DNA of 34,406 bases from the NCBI GenBank assembly GCA_021848775.1, contig JAJZTR010000004.1:1-34406 (forward strand), written 5' to 3'. The DNA is from Chloroflexota bacterium (GTDB lineage: Bacteria > Chloroflexota > Anaerolineae > Anaerolineales > Anaerolineaceae). The notes beneath the pieces were generated by a model. It saw only the letters and a list, made by a program, of their open reading frames with translations, ran no database searches and was not told the DNA's origin. Positions within the stretch are counted from its first letter, which is position 1. Each line of letters begins with the position of its first letter. Both the position numbers and the translations under genes were made by a program. This document shows, piece after piece, positions 22,295-31,522 of this stretch.

Positions 22295-22366
22295 GCGGGT
22301 GTAGTTCAGTGGTAGAACGTTTGCTTCCCAAGCAAAATGTCGTCGGTTCGAGTCCGATCACCCGCT
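22295..22366 (+). tRNA. tRNA-Gly (anticodon CCC), integration target
   Basis: A 72-base cloverleaf. Acceptor GCGGGTG pairs with CACCCGC. The anticodon stem TTTGC/GCAAA holds loop TTCCCAA (anticodon CCC), and the T-loop is TTCGAGT. No CCA is encoded. Its 3' 44 bases, from the last three bases of the 5' anticodon stem on, are part of the att core; the element supplies an identical 3' end, so the tRNA stays functional after insertion. Confidence 0.94.
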
Positions 22367-22367
22367 C
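22323..22367 (+). repeat. attL core (45-bp direct repeat, copy 1)
   Basis: Identical over 45 bases with 31478-31522. It runs from the anticodon stem to one base past the tRNA discriminator. The bases just outside differ between copies. Confidence 0.93.
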
Positions 22368-22392
22368 TAGGTGGGGGTAATTAGTCATTTTT

Positions 22393-22401
22393 ACCGCTAT
22401 A
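22393..22401 (-). repeat. Possible integrase arm site near attL
   Basis: ACCGCTATA is the reverse complement of TATAGCGGT, the end of the 18-bp direct repeats beside attR. It lies between attL and the integrase start. Confidence 0.4.
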
Positions 22402-22423
22402 AATCCATATATAGGGGTATGCT

Positions 22424-23305
22424 ATGACTCAAAAAACACCGTTTGACCATTTACTTAGGGTAAATTATGACAATTTTATCTTAAGCAGGGAGGCTATGAA
22501 TGTCTCCAAAAGTACGATCATTACCTATCGATCTGTATTAGGAAAATTCATAGCCTGGTTAGAATCCGAGGGGATCACCGCTCCGAATCAGATAACCACC
22601 TTTCACATTCGATCATTCATGTCTCAGGTGAAAGGTAAGCCATGGACCCTAAACGGTTACGGCCGGGCGATTCGGACCCTAATGATCTTCTGGTTTGAAG
22701 AGAGAACAATACCCGAGAGAATCAAGGTTGAAGTTCCCCGAGTCAGACGGCAAAAGTTACCCTTCCTTACCGGCCCCCAGATTAAGCAGCTATTGGATCT
22801 ATGCACCGCCCGGGAAAGGGCATTAGTCACTTTCATGGTTGATACCGGCCTGAGACGAATGGAAGTCTCTAATCTGAATGTATCAGATGTGAATTTTGAC
22901 AATGGAGCTGTCCGGGTGCTCCATGGGAAGGGTGATAAATACCGACTTGCTGTCATTGGACCCACTGCCAAACGAACCCTATTGACTGCCATGAAACATA
23001 ATAAGGATAAATCTGAGGATGCGCCGCTCTTCCAAACCCGAGAGGGAAATCGTTTGACCGGAAACGCGATTCAACTTCTATTCAGGCGGTTGTCTGAAAG
23101 AACCGGGATGAAAGTCACCCCCCATATGCTGCGCCGGTCCTTTGCAACCCTTACCCTAAAATCCGGTATCGATCTTGTTTCGCTTCAGATCCTTATGGGG
23201 CATGAATCCATTGAGACAACACGAGGTTATATTCAGCTCCTGGACGATGATCTAATCAAAGCCCATTCTGTTCATTCCCCCATGGATAACCTGAGACGTT
23301 TATAA
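22424..23305 (+). CDS. int: Tyrosine recombinase / site-specific integrase
   Basis: Catalyses integration and excision at the tRNA-Gly att site. The 293-aa protein has a SAM-like core-binding domain (about 10-95) and a catalytic domain (about 110-285). The catalytic set is complete: R144 in DTGLRRMEV, K169 in LHGKGDKYR, H234 and R237 in PHMLRRSFAT, H260 in LMGHESIETT, and nucleophile Y269. The ATG follows AGGGG with a 6-base gap, 56 bases from attL, the normal place for a satellite or prophage integrase. It is shorter than lambda-type integrases and lacks an obvious N-terminal arm-binding domain, so it is XerC/D-like in size. Confidence 0.94.
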   Translation: MTQKTPFDHLLRVNYDNFILSREAMNVSKSTIITYRSVLGKFIAWLESEGITAPNQITTFHIRSFMSQVKGKPWTLNGYGRAIRTLMIFWFEERTIPERIKVEVPRVRRQKLPFLTGPQIKQLLDLCTARERALVTFMVDTGLRRMEVSNLNVSDVNFDNGAVRVLHGKGDKYRLAVIGPTAKRTLLTAMKHNKDKSEDAPLFQTREGNRLTGNAIQLLFRRLSERTGMKVTPHMLRRSFATLTLKSGIDLVSLQILMGHESIETTRGYIQLLDDDLIKAHSVHSPMDNLRRL

Positions 23306-23565
23306 CCAGAACCATTTACCCAATAAGTAAAGTGTCATTTTTTCCGGCCCCCTTTGTGGGTGACATTGAGAGGCTTGCCCCGATTCGAGGGTATACAGAA
23401 GTTCCCCACGGCTATATTAAACGTTCTGGGGGCTTCTGGGGGGGCTGTGGGTATACGTTATTGGTTAGATCCGGGTAAACCACCAACCCCATGACCATTA
23501 GCTTAGGGAAAATCAGGGTGATTTTTGCGGTCCCAAAAGGATCTAATATTACTGAGAAAAGTTAC

Positions 23566-23576
23566 CTACTCAGTAT
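23566..23576 (+). promoter_or_regulatory. 11-bp palindrome copy, one mismatch
   Basis: CTACTCAGTAT; differs from ATACTCAGTAT at the first base. Non-coding, left of the 100-bp repeats. Confidence 0.65.
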
Positions 23577-23722
23577 GGGGTTGAAAATTCCCGATAAGAG
23601 GAAAATGCGCCCATAACCCCCACGCTTGGTATTAGGTGCTCTGGAAAAAAATATAGAGTTTAATCACTTTTTACCCTTCATTCAAAAAGACTTGATCATA
23701 AATTGTCTGGGATTGTGGTCGA

Positions 23723-23733
23723 ATAATCGGTAT
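23723..23733 (+). promoter_or_regulatory. Degenerate 11-bp palindrome in repeat unit 1
   Basis: ATAATCGGTAT, two mismatches, lies exactly 100 bases before the better copy at 23823 in unit 2. Confidence 0.35.
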
Positions 23734-23822
23734 GGTGTGTGATTAAAAAAATATAGCCTTTTGTCACATTTTAGCCGTATCTCAAATTAATTAGATCATA
23801 AATTAATGGGGATTCCGGTTGG

Positions 23823-23833
23823 ATACTCAGTAC
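23823..23833 (+). promoter_or_regulatory. 11-bp palindrome copy, one mismatch
   Basis: ATACTCAGTAC, last base changed. Inside repeat unit 2. Confidence 0.65.
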
Positions 23834-23949
23834 GGGGGGTGAATAAAAATATCGCCTTTTGTCGCTTTTTAGCCTTACCGGTTAGATAATTCCCTTATCT
23901 TCGCGTGAAGGTTGATAACATCCTACCTGTCCAACCTTTGATTTCTTTA

Positions 23950-24804
23950 TCAACTGCAGCTCTTGACCAGGTCGATCATAGAATCACGGTTTGAAAGGCC
24001 GTGAATGGAGGCATGAAGGTTAACAATATCCATCGGTTTACCATTGTTACACCCCGCAAAACACCCGCAAACGCCACGGTTTGTATCAATCCATAACGAA
24101 GGGTTATGATCATCGTGCAATGGACACCGGGCGATATACCAACCCGGGCCGGTTTTAGTTGCATCCGGGAAGTAGGAAAGGATAGTCACGCGCTGCCGCA
24201 CGACTGTTACAAGGTCAAGAGATGGATCTGGTACATTCAAAGCTGATTCCCATGGGTCTGAAGTGGGAACCCATGCCGCGCCCGCTATTCCTGGATTGTG
24301 GGTAATTTTGGGGGCTTCTGGGATCAACCCCAAAGGTATAACTTCGTCAAGTCGGTTAATTCGAGTTATGGGTGCATCCATTAGGACCTGGTACACCGCG
24401 CCGGATGGATGAATCGAGGGAGGGGCCAAAACATAACCCCCGGCCGCTTTGATATCCCCCAGGCCGGGTATATGAGTCGTCTGAACAGGTTGATCACACC
24501 AAAAATAAGCGTGTACACCCCGGCCGGTAATAACCTGATAAGTGGATATTTTATACATGGCCGCCCACATCATGTAAGTATCCACGGTATCAAAATCGAT
24601 TACGACTAATCCCCGGCCGGTCACTATTGCCAGGTTATAGGATCCACTTTCAAACCAATTAACCAGTTCTTCAGGGGAGGGAAGGCGGTTTTGATACTCC
24701 TGCCAGCGGACCGCCGCAACCTTCGATCTGGGTTTTATGGGAATTATTGCCACGCCTAAAATGTACCAATTTATAGCCTGTTTAAGTGTCTCGTTAATGT
24801 CCAT
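23950..24804 (-). CDS. Primase-polymerase (AEP prim-pol) fused to CHC2-type zinc finger
   Basis: Probable replication primase of the element, 284 aa. Residues 5-160 are a bifunctional primase-polymerase domain: VVIDFD (67-72) gives the metal-binding D70 and D72, TGRGVHAYF (93-101) the catalytic-His loop, and KAAGGYVLAPPSIHPSG (119-134) the nucleotide-binding segment. Residues 222-270 look like a DnaG CHC2 zinc-binding domain: CPLH (227-230) with C246/C248/C252, then the family pattern DIVNLHA. No TOPRIM domain follows. AAGGG lies just before the ATG, abutting a copy of the 11-bp palindrome. The gene is downstream of the ATPase on the same strand, with the dyad region between. Confidence 0.88.
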   Translation of the reverse strand: MDINETLKQAINWYILGVAIIPIKPRSKVAAVRWQEYQNRLPSPEELVNWFESGSYNLAIVTGRGLVVIDFDTVDTYMMWAAMYKISTYQVITGRGVHAYFWCDQPVQTTHIPGLGDIKAAGGYVLAPPSIHPSGAVYQVLMDAPITRINRLDEVIPLGLIPEAPKITHNPGIAGAAWVPTSDPWESALNVPDPSLDLVTVVRQRVTILSYFPDATKTGPGWYIARCPLHDDHNPSLWIDTNRGVCGCFAGCNNGKPMDIVNLHASIHGLSNRDSMIDLVKSCS

Positions 24805-24814
24805 AGTTGCCCTT

Positions 24815-24825
24815 ATACTGAGTAA
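24815..24825 (-). promoter_or_regulatory. 11-bp palindrome copy abutting the primase ribosome site
   Basis: ATACTGAGTAA on the plus strand, one mismatch and the only copy with the opposite central base. On the coding strand it ends directly at the AAGGG ribosome site, 10 bases before the ATG, so a bound protein could block expression. Confidence 0.65.
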
Positions 24826-24850
24826 GTCACGGCTAATTATTACCTTTTCA

Positions 24851-24972
24851 TTTCGGTCATTTCGATCATTTCGATCAATTGCTATATGTTTCTTATTACA
24901 TTCTTCTTTTCGAATTTCAGAGAGGCATAAGAAACATTAATCGAAAGATCGTAATGATCGTAATGATCGTAA
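24851..24972. repeat. 122-bp dyad with 9-bp iterons, candidate origin
   Basis: Left arm 24851-24896 and right arm 24927-24972 are inverted copies of each other over 46 bases without a gap. The inner 11 bases are perfect (ATGTTTCTTAT at 24886, ATAAGAAACAT at 24927). The outer parts are three 9-base iterons each: CGATCATTT type on the left, CGATCATTA type read inward from the right. The centre is AT-rich. It fills the gap between the ATPase and primase genes. Confidence 0.82.
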
Positions 24973-24979
24973 GGATTTA

Positions 24980-26437
24980 TCACGGTATAGATACCCCCGC
25001 GAGAATGTTAAGATCTGATATTTCGATGTACTTTTGAGCACGGCCGTTCACCCAGGCGGGTTTATGGAATATCAAATCAATTCCAACCTTCCGTAAAGTT
25101 GGGGCCAACCGCCTTAGCTCCCCTGCCATGGTATTAGGCTTTAATTTGTGGAAGTAATCTTCTGAAGGGCTATAAACAGATTGAACTTGAAACTTTGCAA
25201 GTAAATCCATGGTCGTACCCTTCCAATTCGGATTCTGTTTAATCAAAATCTGCAATTCGTTTGCAATCATTGAATTATCCAGAACGGCCACCGTTGCATT
25301 TTGGGCCGCTATTTCGTAAGTTTTGAGAAACTTACCCGGGTCCCAACCAATGCCGGGACCGGTTGCAGCAACCCAGCGGGCAAAATCAGCCATTCTGGGA
25401 TATTGTGCGAGCTTTGTTTTCTTGTGGTTTGCCAGGGCAAAAGTGAGAGAATCTAGAATTTCCCCGAACAGATACGGTTGGGCCGCTTCAAACTCATTCC
25501 AAAAATCAACCTTTGCCCGCCGGTTTGTATCATCCAATGGGGGAACGGTTAGAATGATCGACCTGGATAACAGATCCCCACGGGTTACAAGGTCTGTAAT
25601 GCCGTTAATCAGCATCGGCCGCTTGACCGATAGAATTATCTCTTCTGAATCGGTATAGAGCTGTCTACTGGCAAACCCCGCCCCGGTCGATATTCTACAC
25701 AAGGAATCTGATAACCAATCCGGGACACTTGAAAGGTTGTCAAAGGCCAAAACATGACTATTCGAGGCCGCTATCATCAGGGTCTGTTCATCTCTGGGGG
25801 AGCTGCGAAGATCCGCTTCATTAGGATCGATCAACCGCCTTAATACCTCAGATAGGGTTGATTTACCGCTCCCCTGTTCACCGTTCAATACCAAAATGGG
25901 ATAATCGCCGGGACCATACGCGCCCAGTAGCCAACCCATAACCAGATACCAACCATCATCATCAAGGTTTGTAAACTCTCGAAGGTCGTAATCCTTATCC
26001 ATACTTAGTAAGGGGGTTGGAAGTTGCTTCATCCCCCGGGTTTGTTTGAATGGAATGGGCGGGTTTGTAATAATATGCCAACCCCGTTGATCCACTTCGA
26101 CAAACTCCCAGTCTTGATTACATAGATCGATATACAGCTTCCCCTGGTAATGTGCTATTCGTGTAAAAACCTCACGGGTGGGATTATCCCCCGCTTTTGC
26201 CACGAAAACGGTTATAGCGTCTTCCAGAGCTGCCCCGCCCATGGTCTTCTTATTCGTCTCATAATATCGCCGGGATACCCAACTCCTGAATTTACCGGAT
26301 CTGACACCCACATACTCAGTATGATTATTGACCGGGATCCCAACCCACGCCGCCCCAACCGGATCGCAAAAGAAATCCAACTTTGGGAGTAAAAGATCTA
26401 CTACGACTGTAGCGGCTGATTTTTGTGTCCTTGGCAT
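24980..26437 (-). CDS. P-loop ATPase, probable SF3-like replicative helicase
   Basis: A 485-aa protein. The central ATPase has Walker A GEQGSGKST (186-194), a Walker B-like VLAFDN (229-234) and PMLINGI near 274-280, where the Asn would be motif C of superfamily 3 helicases. The N-terminal 150 residues and the C-terminal ~130 (KPNTMAGELRRLAPTLRKVGI, winged-helix-like) have no family I can name. ATG 26437 is chosen over GTG 26446 because GGGGGAG lies 8 bases before it; it starts 2 bases after the zinc-protein stop. Paired with the primase downstream it gives a replication module of the kind common in satellites and temperate phages. Confidence 0.8.
   Translation of the reverse strand: MPRTQKSAATVVVDLLLPKLDFFCDPVGAAWVGIPVNNHTEYVGVRSGKFRSWVSRRYYETNKKTMGGAALEDAITVFVAKAGDNPTREVFTRIAHYQGKLYIDLCNQDWEFVEVDQRGWHIITNPPIPFKQTRGMKQLPTPLLSMDKDYDLREFTNLDDDGWYLVMGWLLGAYGPGDYPILVLNGEQGSGKSTLSEVLRRLIDPNEADLRSSPRDEQTLMIAASNSHVLAFDNLSSVPDWLSDSLCRISTGAGFASRQLYTDSEEIILSVKRPMLINGITDLVTRGDLLSRSIILTVPPLDDTNRRAKVDFWNEFEAAQPYLFGEILDSLTFALANHKKTKLAQYPRMADFARWVAATGPGIGWDPGKFLKTYEIAAQNATVAVLDNSMIANELQILIKQNPNWKGTTMDLLAKFQVQSVYSPSEDYFHKLKPNTMAGELRRLAPTLRKVGIDLIFHKPAWVNGRAQKYIEISDLNILAGVSIP
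26312..26322 (+). promoter_or_regulatory. Perfect 11-bp palindrome, inside ATPase gene
   Basis: ATACTCAGTAT about 115 bases into the ATPase coding region. Confidence 0.75.
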
Positions 26438-26439
26438 AA

Positions 26440-26877
26440 TTACCACTCCCCCTTACACTTGGAGTTGACCACTTGCTTCTTAGGTAAATGGTCGTTTTTA
26501 TTGGTGGCCACGGTCTCTATTGCCTCCGCCCATATGGGAGAAGGTACGATGGTATAACCTGCGTAGACAGGATTCCCGGGTATGTAACAATGTGACACCC
26601 TTCGACCGACCTCATCAGTCCATGGTTCGGACGGATCCCAGCCGTGATAATGGAATTTTCCGCACCATGGGCACCTAATCCGCACCTGCCAGCCGTTGCC
26701 CGAATCAATGGGTTTTCCCCGGCCGTATCGGATTCGGCTATGGGGTGGAATCAATTCGCCTTTAACCCGGATATTTTGAATGTGATCTCCGGATTGATAA
26801 TACTCAGTATTTTTGTTATAATATTTATAAGTATCCAAGTTGTCGCCTCGACATTCCAAGCAGCCAAAGGCCCCCAT
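26440..26877 (-). CDS. Phage-type zinc-binding protein of unknown function
   Basis: A 145-aa protein. CLEC at 6-9 and CPWCGKFHYHGW (69-80) with a later SHC (95-97) form a probable zinc site. The CPxCGxxHxHG pattern followed by a distant HC occurs in small uncharacterised proteins of actinophages and related mobile elements; that is a resemblance only. It stands between the protease and the ATPase, with 18 and 2 bases of spacing, so it belongs to the same transcript. The ribosome site is weak. Confidence 0.7.
   Translation of the reverse strand: MGAFGCLECRGDNLDTYKYYNKNTEYYQSGDHIQNIRVKGELIPPHSRIRYGRGKPIDSGNGWQVRIRCPWCGKFHYHGWDPSEPWTDEVGRRVSHCYIPGNPVYAGYTIVPSPIWAEAIETVATNKNDHLPKKQVVNSKCKGEW
26800..26810 (+). 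promoter_or_regulatory. Perfect 11-bp palindrome, inside zinc-protein gene
   Basis: ATACTCAGTAT about 70 bases into the coding region. A degenerate ATACTTAGT also lies at 26899 between this gene and the protease gene. Confidence 0.75.
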
Positions 26878-26895
26878 TTCCCGGGGGTCTACGGT

Positions 26896-27537
26896 TTAAT
26901 ACTTAGTCCTAACACCTAAAACCGCCTTAATCAAATCGATAAATTTACCAACCGCAGCTGTCGTTTGGTCGATATTCCCCGATCGAACGGCTTTTTTTAC
27001 GACTTCCAGGCCAAGATCCAAAGCCTGGTCCGTAAGGCTGCCATTCTTTACCTTTGCGAGGGTCTTTTGATATGCCAGGCGTAAAGCTGATTGATTTGCT
27101 GGGATCGATACAATCGACCATTCCAGCAATTCCCACTCAGTATATTCTTGTGGTCCATACGCCCGGGAGGGATCAAGATTGACCGCCTTGATCGGTTCGA
27201 ATCCAATTGAAGCAGCATTAATAAACCCCTCAGTCCATAAACCCCGGATAGTATCGGCCAGGGGATGTATGCCAGGGGTGGGGAATTTGAAGCGTGATTT
27301 GATTCCAGCTCCCGGGAGTATCTCTACGGTCAATGCCTTTGCAATTGGGGGGATGCTGTAATCATGGCCATACATTACAACCGGGTTCTTACGGTAATTT
27401 TCCAGTCGAGCCCCAGTAGCCCGGACTATGTCACCCGCCCGGTCCGTACCTTCGGTACTGATCCACACCTCGAAAATTCCCTTTTCCTGATCAATAGTTT
27501 TAGTCCGGGCCGGGAAGGTTTTTTCGATTCGTGTCAT
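26896..27537 (-). CDS. HK97-family prohead protease
   Basis: A 213-aa serine protease of the type that trims phage capsid precursors (peptidase family U35/S78). The N-terminal half shows the fold: IFEVWISTEGTDRAGDIV, then VVMYGHD with candidate catalytic H58, then FINAASIGFEP with candidate nucleophile S110, and the closing block WELLEWSIVSIPANQSA (135-151). The C-terminal 60 residues are helical and variable. Its ATG overlaps the TGA of the coiled-coil gene (ATGA), so the two are translationally coupled. No HK97-type major capsid protein, the normal substrate, is found in the element. Confidence 0.9.
   Translation of the reverse strand: MTRIEKTFPARTKTIDQEKGIFEVWISTEGTDRAGDIVRATGARLENYRKNPVVMYGHDYSIPPIAKALTVEILPGAGIKSRFKFPTPGIHPLADTIRGLWTEGFINAASIGFEPIKAVNLDPSRAYGPQEYTEWELLEWSIVSIPANQSALRLAYQKTLAKVKNGSLTDQALDLGLEVVKKAVRSGNIDQTTAAVGKFIDLIKAVLGVRTKY
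27133..27143 (+). promoter_or_regulatory. Degenerate 11-bp palindrome copy
   Basis: CCACTCAGTAT, two mismatches, within the protease gene; keeps the 9-base ACTCAGTAT core. Confidence 0.4.
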
Positions 27538-28205
27538 TTCCCCACCTCCCCATTACGGGCACCAATGGAAAATTTTGAAATTTCCTCTTTACGGGAATTG
27601 ATCCTACCTATCCGGCCGGGAATCCCGTATTTATCCAGGATGGAAATTCCAGCCTTATAATCAAGGGTCCCGGCTGCAATTTCGGTAAGGGCTTCGTCAA
27701 GTTTTTCGTTCGCCCGCCGGAAACTAATCGGGGATTCTTCAATGCCAGGGAGCGGAACACCCCGCCTTTTCATTTCGGATGAAAGGGTTGTCAACCCCTC
27801 ACTTGCAATTTCGTGACGGTCAAAATATTCGAGGGCAACTTTCAAGGCTTTAACCGCTTCATTCCCGGCCTGGTTGATTTCCTTTGCCAACTCAGTATAG
27901 CGACCGCCCATTTCCGATTTTTGGGCATCTGCAAGATCCATCTGAGCCTGAGTAATAAGGTTACCCAGCCTTGTTAAAGCCATGGTTAAATCGGTTTTGC
28001 GGGCTTGAAGATCATTAATTTCCCGCCGGTAATCGTTCGCTTTGGAATCACCCATTATTACCGCATCAATGATCTTTTCTTGAAGGCTTTCCAATTGAGG
28101 ATCCACTTCCTGAAGCTCACGTTCGAAAATTACATTTTGAGCCGTCAATTTGTTAAGATGGTCCCGGGCTTGTGATACTGATAATTTGATTTCCTTAACT
28201 CTCAT
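27534..28205 (-). CDS. Coiled-coil protein upstream of the prohead protease
   Basis: A 223-aa protein I do not recognise. Residues about 5-115 are strongly helical and charged, with heptad-like spacing (NVIFERELQEVDPQLESLQEKI; ARKTDLTMALTRLGNLITQ), so a long coiled coil is likely. The C-terminal third contains EMKRRGVPLPGIEESP and a basic end. It overlaps the preceding ribbon-helix-helix gene by 11 bases and the protease by an ATGA. In HK97-type phages a scaffold-like helical region lies next to the protease as its substrate; this protein could play such a part here, but that is inference from position and shape only. Confidence 0.7.
   Translation of the reverse strand: MRVKEIKLSVSQARDHLNKLTAQNVIFERELQEVDPQLESLQEKIIDAVIMGDSKANDYRREINDLQARKTDLTMALTRLGNLITQAQMDLADAQKSEMGGRYTELAKEINQAGNEAVKALKVALEYFDRHEIASEGLTTLSSEMKRRGVPLPGIEESPISFRRANEKLDEALTEIAAGTLDYKAGISILDKYGIPGRIGRINSRKEEISKFSIGARNGEVGK
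27888..27898 (+). promoter_or_regulatory. Degenerate 11-bp palindrome copy
   Basis: CAACTCAGTAT, two mismatches, within the coiled-coil gene; keeps ACTCAGTAT. Confidence 0.4.
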
Positions 28206-28425
28206 TTTTATTTTCCTTTTTTACATTTTCCCGAGCTTCATTCTGTTCCCGGGTTCGTTGTGCCATGCGACTGATTAGAGAATAATCGGCTAACCAGCGA
28301 ATCGCTAGAGCAATGAGCTCATGCCTCATTAGGCCGGTTTCATCACATAGGTTATCCAGTCTCCGTTTTGTGGTTGTATCCATCTGGATATTTAGAAAAA
28401 TGGGATCTCCTAGTTTAGGTATCAT
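28195..28425 (-). CDS. Ribbon-helix-helix DNA-binding protein (second of a pair)
   Basis: A 76-aa protein with the strand-helix-helix layout of CopG/Arc-like regulators: strand PIFLNIQMD (8-16), helix TTTKRRLDNLCDETG, turn and helix MRHELIALAIRWLADY. A charged tail follows. It begins 3 bases after the stop of the first ribbon-helix-helix gene and overlaps the coiled-coil gene by 11 bases. Confidence 0.75.
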   Translation of the reverse strand: MIPKLGDPIFLNIQMDTTTKRRLDNLCDETGLMRHELIALAIRWLADYSLISRMAQRTREQNEARENVKKENKNES

Positions 28426-28428
28426 CGA

Positions 28429-28623
28429 TTATTGATTGCCCCCTTTTTCCCCCAGTTCGGGACCGGAAATTACTTCGATGTTTTCAACCGATCGGTATCT
28501 ATGCCGGATTAACTGCCGGATTAATTCCGACACAGGGCGGCCTGTTTCCCGGCTTAGTTCGTCAAGAACTAATTTTGCTTCCGGGGTTAAACGAATTGTT
28601 ACGCTTTCTGTTTTTCCACTCAT
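28429..28623 (-). CDS. Ribbon-helix-helix DNA-binding protein (first of a pair)
   Basis: A 64-aa CopG/MetJ/Arc-type protein: strand SVTIRLTP, helix EAKLVLDELSRETG, then RPVSELIRQLIRHRYRS. Such proteins bind short inverted repeats as dimers of dimers. The ATG at 28623 is preferred over a TTG six bases earlier because AGGGAG lies 8 bases before it. A perfect copy of the 11-bp palindrome lies 18 bases upstream of the start, which fits autorepression. It and its neighbour are the best candidates for binding the dispersed palindromes. Confidence 0.85.
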   Translation of the reverse strand: MSGKTESVTIRLTPEAKLVLDELSRETGRPVSELIRQLIRHRYRSVENIEVISGPELGEKGGNQ

Positions 28624-28641
28624 TTTCAATTCTCCCTGTCA

Positions 28642-28652
28642 ATACTCAGTAT
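28642..28652 (+). promoter_or_regulatory. Perfect 11-bp palindrome upstream of the ribbon-helix-helix genes
   Basis: ATACTCAGTAT in the short gap between the tape-measure stop and the first ribbon-helix-helix start, just upstream of its ribosome site. Confidence 0.8.
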
Positions 28653-28655
28653 TGG

Positions 28656-29966
28656 TTATTGCTGCCGTAAGGCTTTTTTAATAAACGGAATTAATACGCG
28701 CTCTGCCTCTTCCCTATCGGCTAAACTGACTATGGGTTGATAGTTGAAAATAATTGGTTGTCCGCCGCCGCCGCCCTGGGGGACAATCGCCCCCTGAATC
28801 GGGAAGGTATAGTATTCAACCTCCCTTTCACCAACCTTATAGATGGTTCCCGGGGTTACATTCCCGCCTTCGGCCTTGCCCCCGCCATTGGTTGGCCAAT
28901 ATGTATTTTCAGATCCATGGGAATGGGGGCGGTCCGGGTGCCCGGGAATCCCACAATATTTCGAGGGTTTCAATCCAGAATTTTCGATCTGACTACTGTA
29001 ATTTTGAGCCGCCTTGGAAGCATTATTCCAGGAGCTTTCAAGTCCACCGAGTTCATCTGATTGGGCACTTACTGAATCGGTTGTATTTTCCATCCATGCT
29101 TTGGTATCTAAAAATGCAGCCCGAACTTGTGCCAGGAAGGGGACCCATTTCATCCATTTTGCTCCACCCTCTTCAACGGCTTCATTGTGGTCAACAATAC
29201 GATTCAGTAGATCGGTTAGGGGTGGAATAACCGCTGCCCCTATCTGGTATTTGAATCCCATCCATGAATCTCCAAGGTCGTCAACCGCCAGCAAATAATC
29301 TTCAGCCTCTTCCTTTGATTGTCCAGTAATGATCATATAGTCGGCTACAGCATCTGTGAGATCTTGGACCTTATCCGAGCCCAACTCCATCATACGGGCC
29401 ATTTCCATACCGGACCGGCCAAAATTATCAGTTAGAAATTGAGCCCGCTGTAATGGATCTTGGAGATTCCTGTATTTATCCGATAATTCACCAATGCCCT
29501 GAATGGATGGGGTCGTACCATTTTGGGCCATGGTTTTTAAGGCCATTTCCAGGGTGCCAGTTTCAATCCGGAGATCATCGGCTACTTGAATCAGCTTGGA
29601 TGTTTCCTCACTTGCCATACCGCTATAAGTGGCTATTCGATCAACCACTTCCACATAAGCGGTGTAATCATTAATCGATTCTTTGAGAAAATTTCCGGTT
29701 GCCTGAATAGCGGTACCGAATAACTGCATGGGGCTGATCGGAATTGATAAACCCATCCCGCTTAATAAGTCAGCGGTGGATCCTACATTCGTTCCGAATA
29801 AATTGATATCTTTATCCAAACTACCAACGGTTGAGCGGGTCCCGGCCATGGCCTTTTCCAGATCGGTTAAACCGCCCTTCATTGCCTGCAGGTCGTCAAC
29901 CGTTTCCTGGGGGGCATCCCCCTCCCGTTTGGTTCTTAGGATGATATCAATGTTTGATTCTGACAT
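28656..29966 (-). CDS. Short phage tail tape-measure-like protein
   Basis: A 436-aa protein whose first 300 residues resemble the N-terminal region of TP901-type tail tape-measure proteins: IILRTKREG, the long helical GGLTDLEKAMAGTRSTVGSL, and blocks such as AVEVVDRIATYSGMASEE-like YVEVVDRIATYSG, LKTMAQNGTTPSIQG and FGRSGMEMARMMELG. The C-terminal third is Gly/Pro-rich (PQGGGGGQPI) and closes with SLADREEAERVLIPFIKKALR. Tape measures of real phages are usually 600-2000 residues, so this is unusually short yet has a natural-looking end. The ATG follows GAGTGAGG. It is the first protein gene after the putative structured RNA. Confidence 0.8.
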   Translation of the reverse strand: MSESNIDIILRTKREGDAPQETVDDLQAMKGGLTDLEKAMAGTRSTVGSLDKDINLFGTNVGSTADLLSGMGLSIPISPMQLFGTAIQATGNFLKESINDYTAYVEVVDRIATYSGMASEETSKLIQVADDLRIETGTLEMALKTMAQNGTTPSIQGIGELSDKYRNLQDPLQRAQFLTDNFGRSGMEMARMMELGSDKVQDLTDAVADYMIITGQSKEEAEDYLLAVDDLGDSWMGFKYQIGAAVIPPLTDLLNRIVDHNEAVEEGGAKWMKWVPFLAQVRAAFLDTKAWMENTTDSVSAQSDELGGLESSWNNASKAAQNYSSQIENSGLKPSKYCGIPGHPDRPHSHGSENTYWPTNGGGKAEGGNVTPGTIYKVGEREVEYYTFPIQGAIVPQGGGGGQPIIFNYQPIVSLADREEAERVLIPFIKKALRQQ

Positions 29967-29990
29967 TCCAATACCTCACTCAAAGGATTA

Positions 29991-30035
29991 AAACAAAAAC
30001 CGGCTAGACTCCCCAATCTCAGGGGAACTAGCCGG
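29991..30035 (-). terminator. Rho-independent terminator between structured RNA and tape-measure gene
   Basis: On the minus strand CCGGCTAG (30035-30028) pairs perfectly with CTAGCCGG (30007-30000), with an inner CCCC/GGGG helix, followed by TTTTTGTTT. It ends 25 bases before the tape-measure ATG. Confidence 0.85.
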
Positions 30036-30150
30036 GCCACGTTCGGAGTCTGCTACGCTATGCAGTTGCTCTTCGCTTTTAGTGTGCTCACCTATCCGGT
30101 CGACGCATGCCTAATCTCGTATCATTAGGCAAACTATAAAATTTAGCGCA
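29995..30150 (-). ncRNA. Putative structured RNA or attenuating leader
   Basis: About 155 bases without an open frame, bounded by a -10 box (TATAAT at 30161-30156) and a strong terminator. On the minus strand it contains GCCTAAT/ATTAGGC with an 8-base loop and a second compound hairpin GAG(CAA)CTGC...GCAG(A)CTC, then the terminator stem. It lies directly upstream of the tape-measure operon on the same strand, so it may be a free small RNA, or a leader whose terminator is read through under some condition. I cannot match it to a known RNA family. Confidence 0.6.
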
Positions 30151-30155
30151 CCTCT

Positions 30156-30161
30156 ATTATA
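30156..30161 (-). promoter_or_regulatory. -10 box of the RNA/tape-measure transcript
   Basis: TATAAT on the minus strand; no good -35 at 17 bases. A perfect 11-bp palindrome lies 50 bases upstream (30211). Confidence 0.5.
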
Positions 30162-30210
30162 CATCCATTAAACATTAGATATCTTAATAAATTTACCCAA
30201 AATGCCTTAC

Positions 30211-30221
30211 ATACTCAGTAT
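30211..30221 (+). promoter_or_regulatory. Perfect 11-bp palindrome upstream of the RNA/tape-measure promoter
   Basis: ATACTCAGTAT in non-coding DNA. Confidence 0.78.
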
Positions 30222-30573
30222 GGGGGGATCCCGTCCTATAAGGAATAATAACAATCCCCGGCTGATTCTTTAACATTTCTACAATGGCTTCAGTTAAATC
30301 TATCTATCACCTTCAACCCCCACAAAAACCGGCCAGATTATTCCGATTGTGCAATTAAAGTTACACCCCTATCAAAAAAGTTCGATTTCTACCATGATAG
30401 ATGATCTGGAAAAGGGTAAATAATCAGCAAAAATGATAAAATTAGGCCTGATGGTTTCGATAACTTAATATTATCGCAATTATCTATAACCATTTTCGCC
30501 CACTTTTTTGGATATTATTGGTGCCTTATTTTCTCAATGAATCGCATTGGATTCTTTAACATTAGGTGGAATA
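30222..30573. other. AT-rich intergenic region between divergent transcripts
   Basis: No gene seen. It holds a 14-bp direct repeat GATTCTTTAACATT at 30264 and 30550, and an inverted repeat CGATAA/TTATCG with a 7-base spacer at 30458-30476. These are plausible operator or promoter elements for the divergent minus-strand block and the plus-strand small genes. Confidence 0.5.
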
Positions 30574-30804
30574 ATGAATATTAGTTTAGATCCCCAACCC
30601 AAAAAGATTGATCGCCTTACGCTTAGGCGGATTGTCGCCGCTGTTTTAGTCCGGGCTGTTATGGATTGTCTGGAGGACAACGAATTAAACCGGACCTCCG
30701 CCCGGTCATGGTTGGAAAACACCGGCCGGGGTTGGGCTGATACTTTGGGTATTGATCTCCCGGACTTGGATTCTGCCAGGAAGATTGCTTTAAGACGCTG
30801 GTAA
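30574..30804 (+). CDS. Small protein of unknown function
   Basis: A 76-aa protein starting MNISLDPQPKKIDRLTLRR. The ATG at 30574 follows AGGTGG with a good gap; a TTG upstream in frame has no such support. The middle is helical with many Arg and Leu residues (RIVAAVLVRAVMDCLEDNELN); the end is GWADTLGIDLPDLDSARKIALRRW. I recognise no domain. It is transcribed away from the structural block and could encode a regulator or helper-interference factor. Confidence 0.65.
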   Translation: MNISLDPQPKKIDRLTLRRIVAAVLVRAVMDCLEDNELNRTSARSWLENTGRGWADTLGIDLPDLDSARKIALRRW

Positions 30805-30927
30805 TTTACAAGTGTAATTGTGGGTTATCGTTTCCCTTGTGGATACTCCAAAAAGCATTGAAATGGATTCCCATAATGGCTAATATTATTATGTCGCTTC
30901 CATCAATTAGCTGAAAGGATCCACAAA

Positions 30928-31266
30928 ATGACACACGAAATCAACCCGAATTTTATTGAACTTCTCATTGACAAGGGGTTAAATATAGTATTGGAATGGC
31001 TGAGAACCAACAACGCCCCCGCCGAAATGATCGATTTGTTAGATAATTGTTCATTTATGGCAGCCAACATTTCAGAATTACGGTCCGGGAATTTACCAGA
31101 TGAAACTGAAAATGCCATCCAAGATGATGTCCCGGAAACAATCAATTTGATCTATCAATTAGGGGGGTGGTTTTCTGAAGATGGACGCGATTCTTTTGAT
31201 TTTAAGGAATGGCATCTTCCCGCCCAAAATTCAAAATCCTCCAATATTGACAATCCGGGAGAATAA
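30928..31266 (+). CDS. Small acidic protein of unknown function
   Basis: A 112-aa protein starting MTHEINPNFIELLIDKGLNI. The ribosome site GAAAGGA lies about 9 bases before the ATG. The composition is acidic, mainly helical in the first 60 residues (IVLEWLRTNNAPAEMIDLLDN), with a polar end. No family recognised. It is the last gene before attR, where satellites often carry cargo or immunity genes. A perfect 11-bp palindrome follows 13 bases after the stop. Confidence 0.65.
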   Translation: MTHEINPNFIELLIDKGLNIVLEWLRTNNAPAEMIDLLDNCSFMAANISELRSGNLPDETENAIQDDVPETINLIYQLGGWFSEDGRDSFDFKEWHLPAQNSKSSNIDNPGE

Positions 31267-31278
31267 ACCCGCTCTCCC

Positions 31279-31289
31279 ATACTCAGTAT
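31279..31289 (+). promoter_or_regulatory. Perfect 11-bp palindrome after the last small gene
   Basis: ATACTCAGTAT in non-coding DNA about 190 bases from attR. Confidence 0.75.
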
Positions 31290-31404
31290 TAGGGAGCACC
31301 AACCTTAAAATTTCTTGCTTTCCGGGTCCTGAATCGCTATTATTTCGGTGTAGGTTGTGACCGTTTACTCCCTGAAAGTCACCAACCGGGAAAGTTTGAT
31401 CACA

Positions 31405-31454
31405 ACCCCCACATATAGCGGTTGATATTTTCTAATACCCCCACATATAGCGGT
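31405..31454 (+). repeat. 18-bp direct repeat pair next to attR
   Basis: ACCCCCACATATAGCGGT occurs at 31405-31422 and 31437-31454, 32 bases apart and 24 bases before the att core. A partial inverted copy lies beside attL. The layout fits arm-type sites for integrase or an excisionase. Confidence 0.7.
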
Positions 31455-31477
31455 AATTTCCGGGCTCTCCAAAGATC

Positions 31478-31522
31478 GCTTCCCAAGCAAAATGTCGTCG
31501 GTTCGAGTCCGATCACCCGCTC
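31478..31522 (+). repeat. attR core (45-bp direct repeat, copy 2)
   Basis: A perfect copy of 22323-22367, reproducing the tRNA-Gly 3' half without the 5' half. It marks the right end of the element. Confidence 0.93.

Follow-up and report, generated by a model that had tools for sequence, protein, structure and literature searches.

A short palindromic DNA site is dispersed, evenly and with evidence of selection, through a phage-satellite-like element and through many otherwise different prophages of the Anaerolineaceae, but not through other prophages of the family or the host chromosome. This points to an unrecognised system that silences or organises whole elements through a binding protein yet to be identified. 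The window that we analysed is a stretch of 34,406 nucleotides from a 2.73-Mb genome of a Bellilinea relative (Anaerolineaceae, Chloroflexota), and the element occupies 9.2 kb of it, in a tRNA-Gly gene. All five exact copies of ATACTCAGTAT in the genome lie in the element, with only scattered one-mismatch hits elsewhere. The tRNA gene was identified with ARAGORN and Rfam and the proteins with profile searches, giving the following features.

22295..22367 (+), tRNA-Gly (CCC), the 3' part of which is the left attachment repeat; a 52-bp direct repeat, 22316-22367 / 31471-31522, is 94% identical
22424..23305 (+), tyrosine integrase (PF00589, 4e-33), catalytic residues intact by inspection
23566..23576 (+), site CTACTCAGTAT, one mismatch
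23645..23940 (no strand), three imperfect repeats of about 100 bp, two of which carry a site-like palindrome; possible origin or handling region
23723..23733 (+), site-like ATAATCGGTAT, two mismatches
23823..23833 (+), site ATACTCAGTAC, one mismatch
23950..24804 (-), prim-pol primase with DnaG-type Zn ribbon (PF09250, 5e-19), 35-43% identical to primases of other site-bearing elements
24815..24825 (-), site TTACTCAGTAT, one mismatch, 11 bp upstream of the primase start
24980..26446 (-), helicase/ATPase with relatives in site-bearing phages of the family (28-33%)
26001..26011 (+), site-like ATACTTAGTAA, centre T, inside the helicase gene
26312..26322 (+), exact site, inside the helicase gene
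26800..26810 (+), exact site, inside the 145-aa gene
26896..27537 (-), prohead-protease-like protein (phrog_617, 8.5e-18; phrog_80, 2.7e-16), containing a two-mismatch site at 27133
27534..28205 (-), coiled-coil, scaffold-like protein (coiled coil only detected), containing a two-mismatch site at 27888
28195..28425 (-), RHH-A, small protein with a weak ribbon-helix-helix signature (weak phrog_876; iterative HMM)
28429..28623 (-), RHH-B, CopG-like ribbon-helix-helix protein (PF01402, 5e-9)
28642..28652 (+), exact site, 19 bp upstream of the RHH-B start codon
28656..29966 (-), short tape-measure-like protein (phrog_8462, 1.5e-8), best relative in a site-free prophage (G104:C18)
30211..30221 (+), exact site, intergenic, 245 bp upstream of the tape-measure-like gene
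31279..31289 (+), exact site, intergenic, near the right attachment repeat
31471..31522 (+), right attachment repeat, a copy of the tRNA-Gly 3' end, and right boundary of the element

The observation made in the first-pass annotation is confirmed, as the five exact copies, the three one-mismatch copies and the three named two-mismatch copies are all present at the positions given there, although the copy at 26001, with centre T and one arm mismatch, had been missed. Allowing up to two mismatches and counting palindromes on both strands, the window has 29 hits against 4.5 +/- 2.3 in dinucleotide shuffles, and 0 of 100 shuffles reached 29. In the 9.5-kb element region, a second-order Markov model predicts 0.0000 exact sites and 0.02 copies of the core TACTSAGTA (S = C or G), where 5 and 8 respectively were observed. 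In an unbiased scan of gapped palindromes, ATACT-N-AGTAT was by far the highest-scoring in the element (14 against 7 for the next). The remark that the copies share a central base, and hence an orientation, is true here (7 of 8 cores) but is not general, since over 395 sites in site-bearing elements the sense strand has C in 173 and G in 222, so that the site has no strong orientation. The central base is almost always G or C (395 against 6 A/T), and the symmetric logo carries little information beyond 11-13 bp. The element itself resembles PICI- or P4-like phage satellites in being a small integrated element, 9.2 kb between attachment repeats, with integrase, prim-pol, helicase, protease-like and tape-measure-like genes but without a full set of capsid, portal and terminase genes. 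No helper prophage with the site was found in this assembly, and a portal search was negative in the genome designated G000.

The same site is dispersed through about 15 other prophages or satellites of the family and about 25 metagenomic phages, with core counts reaching 24 in 20.8 kb against 0.18 expected, and family-wide the exact copies cluster in prophages. In contrast, the site is absent from about 20 other Anaerolineaceae prophages, including a second prophage (C23) of Bellilinea caldifistulae, which coexists in the same strain with the site-bearing prophage C27. The unbiased palindrome scan returned ATACT-N-AGTAT first in most site-bearing elements and in none of the site-free ones. 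In about 300 genomes of other families of the class there were only isolated hits and no clusters, apart from one genome with 78 copies (G513), in which an unrelated interspersed repeat ends in the palindrome. A search for plasmid relatives found none. The outer bases differ by element, with G125 and L321 (two site-bearing elements) favouring T and a third, L276, having A on both sides in 14 of 14 sites. When we looked for host-clade variants of the site, TTACTCAGTAA clustered only in the G125 prophage.

Comparison of related elements indicates that the sites are selectively retained. Between site-bearing relatives, 313 of 549 aligned sites are conserved where 71 are expected, while against site-free relatives only 8 of 57 are conserved (3.4 expected). 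Spacing is also more even than random (combined p 2.9e-6), as for example in the site-bearing element L325, with 10 sites about 2 kb apart and a CV of 0.19. Of 395 sites, there is mild enrichment at gene starts (49 against 31), at gene ends (41 against 31) and between genes (34 against 20).

We tentatively favour a reading in which ATACTSAGTAT, with its dyad axis on the central G/C base pair, is the operator or stoperator-like site of a symmetric, probably dimeric, DNA-binding protein. Sites are placed about every 0.8-2.2 kb through the whole length of certain temperate phages and satellites of Anaerolineaceae, in both orientations, inside genes and between them. In this view the likeliest role is whole-element silencing in the integrated state, in which the protein would occupy many sites, block or bridge transcription wherever it starts, and so keep early, late and satellite genes off. 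Our computations establish the set of sites, its dispersal, its restriction to some elements of one bacterial family, its selective retention and turnover, its even spacing and the loss of most sites in site-free relatives, whereas binding by a dimer and silencing as its outcome are inferred from sequence alone. The binder could be a fast-diverging or unrecognised element protein, or a host protein that these elements exploit.

The interpretation in the first-pass annotation is partly supported. Its comparison with stoperators is consistent with a site that is confined to the mobile element, far above chance, present in relatives at changed positions and distributed like a set of dispersed repressor sites. 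Its proposal that the twin ribbon-helix-helix proteins bind the site is not supported for the site in general, and we consider it unlikely. An exact site does lie 19 bp upstream of RHH-B, ribbon-helix-helix proteins are found at the start of the early operon of several site-bearing elements whose early end was examined, and CopG-type sites have a similar architecture. However, RHH-B has only one weak match (42%, E = 3e-5), in a site-free locus, in 147 genomes of the family, and none in viral contigs. Ribbon-helix-helix proteins with near-identical DNA-contacting strands (QVNVN, QINVN) occur both in site-bearing phages (L227, L319) and in site-free prophages (Bellilinea C23, L301), and contact residues differ widely while the site does not. 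Binding by RHH-B in this element alone is not excluded.

No phage gene family, including the Xre repressor, integrase and primase, was found to track the sites, in an association that used 20-kb pieces rather than complete phage genomes. The divergent Xre/RHH switch region of three site-bearing phages (G001, G038 and G033) has no site within two mismatches, and so the classical immunity repressor does not seem to be the binder. Consistent with this, a prophage in the same strain with an Xre 60% identical has zero cores in 40 kb, and by inspection the recognition helices differ between site-bearing phages. Integrases of site-bearing and site-free phages are intermixed in the tree, and primase and helicase modules are present in many site-free viruses and absent from some site-bearing phages.

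This lack of an associated gene family raises the possibility that the binder is a host protein conserved in Anaerolineaceae, which only some elements have evolved to use, for example as a silencer that stabilises lysogeny, or which they titrate as a sponge. That clusters were found only in this bacterial family, and that a satellite and unrelated phages share one site although their regulators differ, would be in agreement with this. However, isolated chromosomal sites among the 29 family loci examined have no shared context, so that no host regulon was seen, and both the coexistence of site-bearing and site-free prophages in one strain and the differences in outer bases between elements also count against it. 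We regard a host binder as possible but doubtful. Somewhat less likely still is that one conserved trans-acting protein, host-borne or shared between elements, reads the 11-bp palindrome as a common silencing code for many unrelated prophages and their satellites, so that phages and satellites with different classical repressors would be kept silent, and possibly induced, together.

Even spacing and lack of orientation also fit DNA organisation, segregation or protection. A ParB/KorB-, Noc-, SlmA- or MatP-like protein might load at many dispersed palindromes to condense, partition or spatially place the phage or satellite DNA, perhaps during replication; partition or copy-control sites had been named as alternatives in the annotation. 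The G/C-only dyad centre is shared with the KorB operator core TTTAGCGGCTAAA (PMC11790492). We consider this unlikely, as no ParB-like gene was seen among the scanned proteins of the element, of the site-bearing phages G001 and G033 or of G161, although not every phage gene was covered, and these elements are integrated and encode integrases, and so do not need partition. It is less likely again that the sites are iteron-, Chi- or pac-like signals for replication, recombination or packaging, which satellites copy in order to be processed with the helper. Two of the three 100-bp repeats next to the integrase carry a site-like palindrome, satellites and phages share the site, and even spacing would guarantee a site on any fragment. 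However, site-bearing elements use different replication modules (prim-pol, VapE, DnaC-like loader), packaging signals are normally one per genome, and a Chi site would be frequent in the host chromosome, which this site is not.

Dispersed operator systems are known from a few phages, each with its own repressor. Here, one nearly invariant palindrome is used by many phages with different capsids, replication modules and immunity repressors, and by small satellites, across many genera of Anaerolineaceae, a group whose phages are hardly studied. Literature searches for the motif string returned no relevant paper, and those on prophages of Bellilinea or Anaerolineae nothing useful. The sites are under selection for presence and even coverage, independent of any recognisable gene, and identification of the binder would reveal either a new phage-wide lysogeny factor or a host silencer that phages exploit. 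The motif is also a simple sequence tag for finding such elements in metagenomes, and isolates carrying site-bearing prophages exist (Bellilinea caldifistulae, Thermanaerothrix daxensis and Ornatilinea apprima), making the system open to experiment.

The operators of KorB, which silences at long range on plasmid RK2, are likewise palindromic with a G/C base at the dyad (PMC11790492), but KorB is encoded by the plasmid, in contrast to the absence of a ParB/KorB-like gene among the proteins scanned here. KorB operators are dispersed on RK2. The stoperators of mycobacteriophage L5 and other Cluster A phages (PMC6550527, PMC9283540) are similar in that many short repressor sites, up to about 30, are spread over a temperate phage genome, some inside or at the ends of genes, with a consensus that drifts between relatives. 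L5 sites, however, are 13-bp, asymmetric, bound by a monomeric repressor and mostly in one orientation relative to transcription, whereas the present site is palindromic, orientation-free and nearly invariant across unrelated phages and satellites, and no repressor gene tracks it. The SPBRE/MrpR system of Bacillus phage SPbeta (PMC10516654) also has a dispersed repeated element, bound by one master repressor, for which function was proposed from sequence decades before the binder was found. Its 15-bp motif lies at intergenic regions (nine ChAP-seq peaks) and is bound by a recombinase-fold repressor, while here the sites are denser and largely inside genes, no recombinase-fold repressor gene was found to accompany them, and the integrase of the element keeps its catalytic residues. 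The conserved inverted repeats of phiC31 and the C1 operators of P1 are likewise dispersed operators of a phage repressor, those of phiC31 being inverted repeats, but they are known in single phages with an identified repressor, whereas the site described here is shared by many elements of a whole bacterial family.

All of the copies of the palindrome recorded in the first-pass annotation, five exact, three with one mismatch and three with two mismatches, were found where it had placed them, and the observation therefore held, although one further copy at position 26001 (ATACTTAGTAA) had been missed. In the whole assembly (2.73 Mb, 253 contigs) all five exact copies lie in the element. Under a second-order Markov model the 9.5-kb region should hold 0.02 copies of the core TACTSAGTA, but holds 8. 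An unbiased scan of palindromes with 5-bp arms and gaps of 0-6 placed ATACT-N-AGTAT first, far ahead of the next palindrome. The element itself lies between a tRNA-Gly gene and a repeat of the 3' end of that gene, and the features of the region to which we refer are as follows.

22295-22367: tRNA-Gly gene
22316-31522: the element, a 9.2-kb satellite-like unit in a Chloroflexota genome
24848-24975: large imperfect inverted repeat (49-nt arms, 78%) with repeated CGATCATT-like units, upstream of the primase gene
26001: the missed copy of the palindrome
28656-29966: gene for the short (436 aa) tape-measure-like protein
29997-30036: strong hairpin (CCGGCTAG...CTAGCCGG) upstream of the tape-measure-like gene in a 600-bp non-coding region, without a match in Rfam
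31471-31522: 52-bp repeat of the 3' end of the tRNA-Gly gene (94%)

The element encodes a tyrosine integrase, a prim-pol, a helicase, a 145-aa protein without a family match, a prohead-protease-like protein, a coiled-coil protein, two small ribbon-helix-helix (RHH) proteins and a short tape-measure-like protein, while no portal, terminase or capsid gene was recognised, and as such it looks like a phage satellite. Its replication genes are closest to those of site-bearing phages, while its tape-measure-like and protease-like genes are closest to those of site-free prophages (genome G104, contig C18, and genome G055, contig C33), hinting at mixed parentage or at the type of helper. The tape-measure-like protein occurs in an element without other tail genes, and it might alter the tail length of helper particles. 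The host genome is a congener of Bellilinea caldifistulae (G001, strain GOMI-1). Thermanaerothrix daxensis (G037) and Ornatilinea apprima (G018) were also recognised among the genomes compared, and that their GTDB family (f1) is Anaerolineaceae is inferred from these members.

An exact search of 147 genomes of this family gave clusters of the site in genomes G001, G004, G005, G012, G018, G030, G031, G032, G033, G037, G038, G056, G125 and G161. The regions retrieved are prophages with portal, tape-measure, endolysin, integrase and replication genes, or small VapE elements like the one in G161 (contig C15; locus L060, 4999-9824), a second small site-bearing element that is PICI-like and encodes an integrase, an RHH protein, a VapE-like helicase and a coiled-coil protein. 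In locus L051 (13135-14853) and its relatives, the early operons of the phages encode a DnaJ-domain protein and a von Willebrand factor A-like protein next to nuclease and VapE genes, an unusual combination for phages. A class-wide sample of 327 genomes showed only isolated hits outside the family, with the exception of G513, an unrelated genome of the class with 78 copies of the exact motif. In the five stretches of G513 that were read (L358-L362), the motif is the end of an unrelated interspersed repeat (CAAATCTTGA-ATACTGAGTAT), probably a MITE-like element. A search of IMG/VR with the aligned primases brought 80 viral loci, of which about 25 carry dense sites, up to 24 cores in 20.8 kb or 14 exact copies in 16 kb, while most of the others carry none. 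Palindromes with T at the outer position dominate in G125 and in loci L315, L318 and L321. The sequence logo has little information outside 11-13 bp, and the centre is almost always G or C. Phage portals found in the family led us to about 20 prophages without sites, which served as natural controls. One of these is a second prophage of Bellilinea caldifistulae (contig 23), with an Xre repressor 60% identical to that of the site-bearing prophage on contig 27 of the same organism and an RHH gene beside it, and yet with no core in 40 kb. Genome G032 carries both kinds of prophage on one contig. The trait therefore belongs to the element, and not to every prophage of the host.

As a measure of selection on the sites, we compared, for aligned relatives, the fate of every core with that of all 9-mers in the same alignment. 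Between site-bearing relatives 313 of 549 aligned cores are kept against 71 expected, and below 72% nucleotide identity 134 of 268 are kept against 13 expected. In contrast, against site-free relatives 8 of 57 are kept against 3.4 expected. As the pairs are not independent and are counted both ways, these values are effect sizes rather than exact probabilities. About two fifths of sites are not shared at the aligned position although both elements carry sites, and so individual sites turn over while coverage is kept. Sites are spaced more evenly than random (combined p 2.9e-6 over 15 elements, some of them related), as in locus L325, with 10 sites about 2 kb apart (CV 0.19), and are mildly enriched at gene boundaries. 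In several site-bearing phages (loci L046, 4204-4605; L049, 7003-7437; L051, 7739-8149) a site lies inside the Xre repressor gene and spells DTEYQ in the protein, whereas homologous repressors of site-free phages have other residues there, and the DNA site thus seems to constrain the protein.

We tested the candidates for the protein that would bind the site in turn. The first-pass annotation had likened the sites to stoperators and named the twin RHH proteins of the element as the natural candidates to bind them, and this interpretation is only partly supported, as the stoperator analogy is supported in part but the proposed binder is not. RHH-B, one of the two, has one weak relative in the family, in a locus without a site, and none in viral contigs. 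RHH proteins are widespread at early-operon starts, but strands with the same contact residues occur with and without sites. The Xre/RHH switch region of G001, G038 and G033 lacks a site within two mismatches, and the integrases of site-bearing and site-free phages mix. Profile-level searches seeded with the ORFs of the element, G161, G125 and G018, and searches at the pairwise level, found no family that was present in all site-bearing and absent from site-free elements, although in these searches the metagenomic loci are partial, the ORFs were called mechanically, and host factors in whole genomes were not covered. Isolated chromosomal sites among the 29 family loci examined have no common context. 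The binder may be encoded by the elements, which is favoured by the all-or-none state of close relatives and by the element-specific outer bases, or by the host, which is favoured by the lack of any tracking gene and by restriction to one family.

The pattern is real, conserved and far wider than had been claimed in the first-pass annotation. This much rests on the sequence comparisons, whereas binding by a protein and any function of the sites are inferred. In the likeliest reading, a symmetric protein binds sites placed every 1-2 kb, and silences or organises the element as a whole. DNA organisation is the main rival function, because of the even spacing and the G/C dyad, which is like that of KorB (PMC11790492). 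Silencing is nevertheless preferred, because the carriers are integrated elements, because the sites cover early and late genes and lie slightly more often at gene boundaries, and because the nearest known systems, the stoperators of L5 (PMC6550527) and SPBRE/MrpR (PMC10516654), serve lysogeny.
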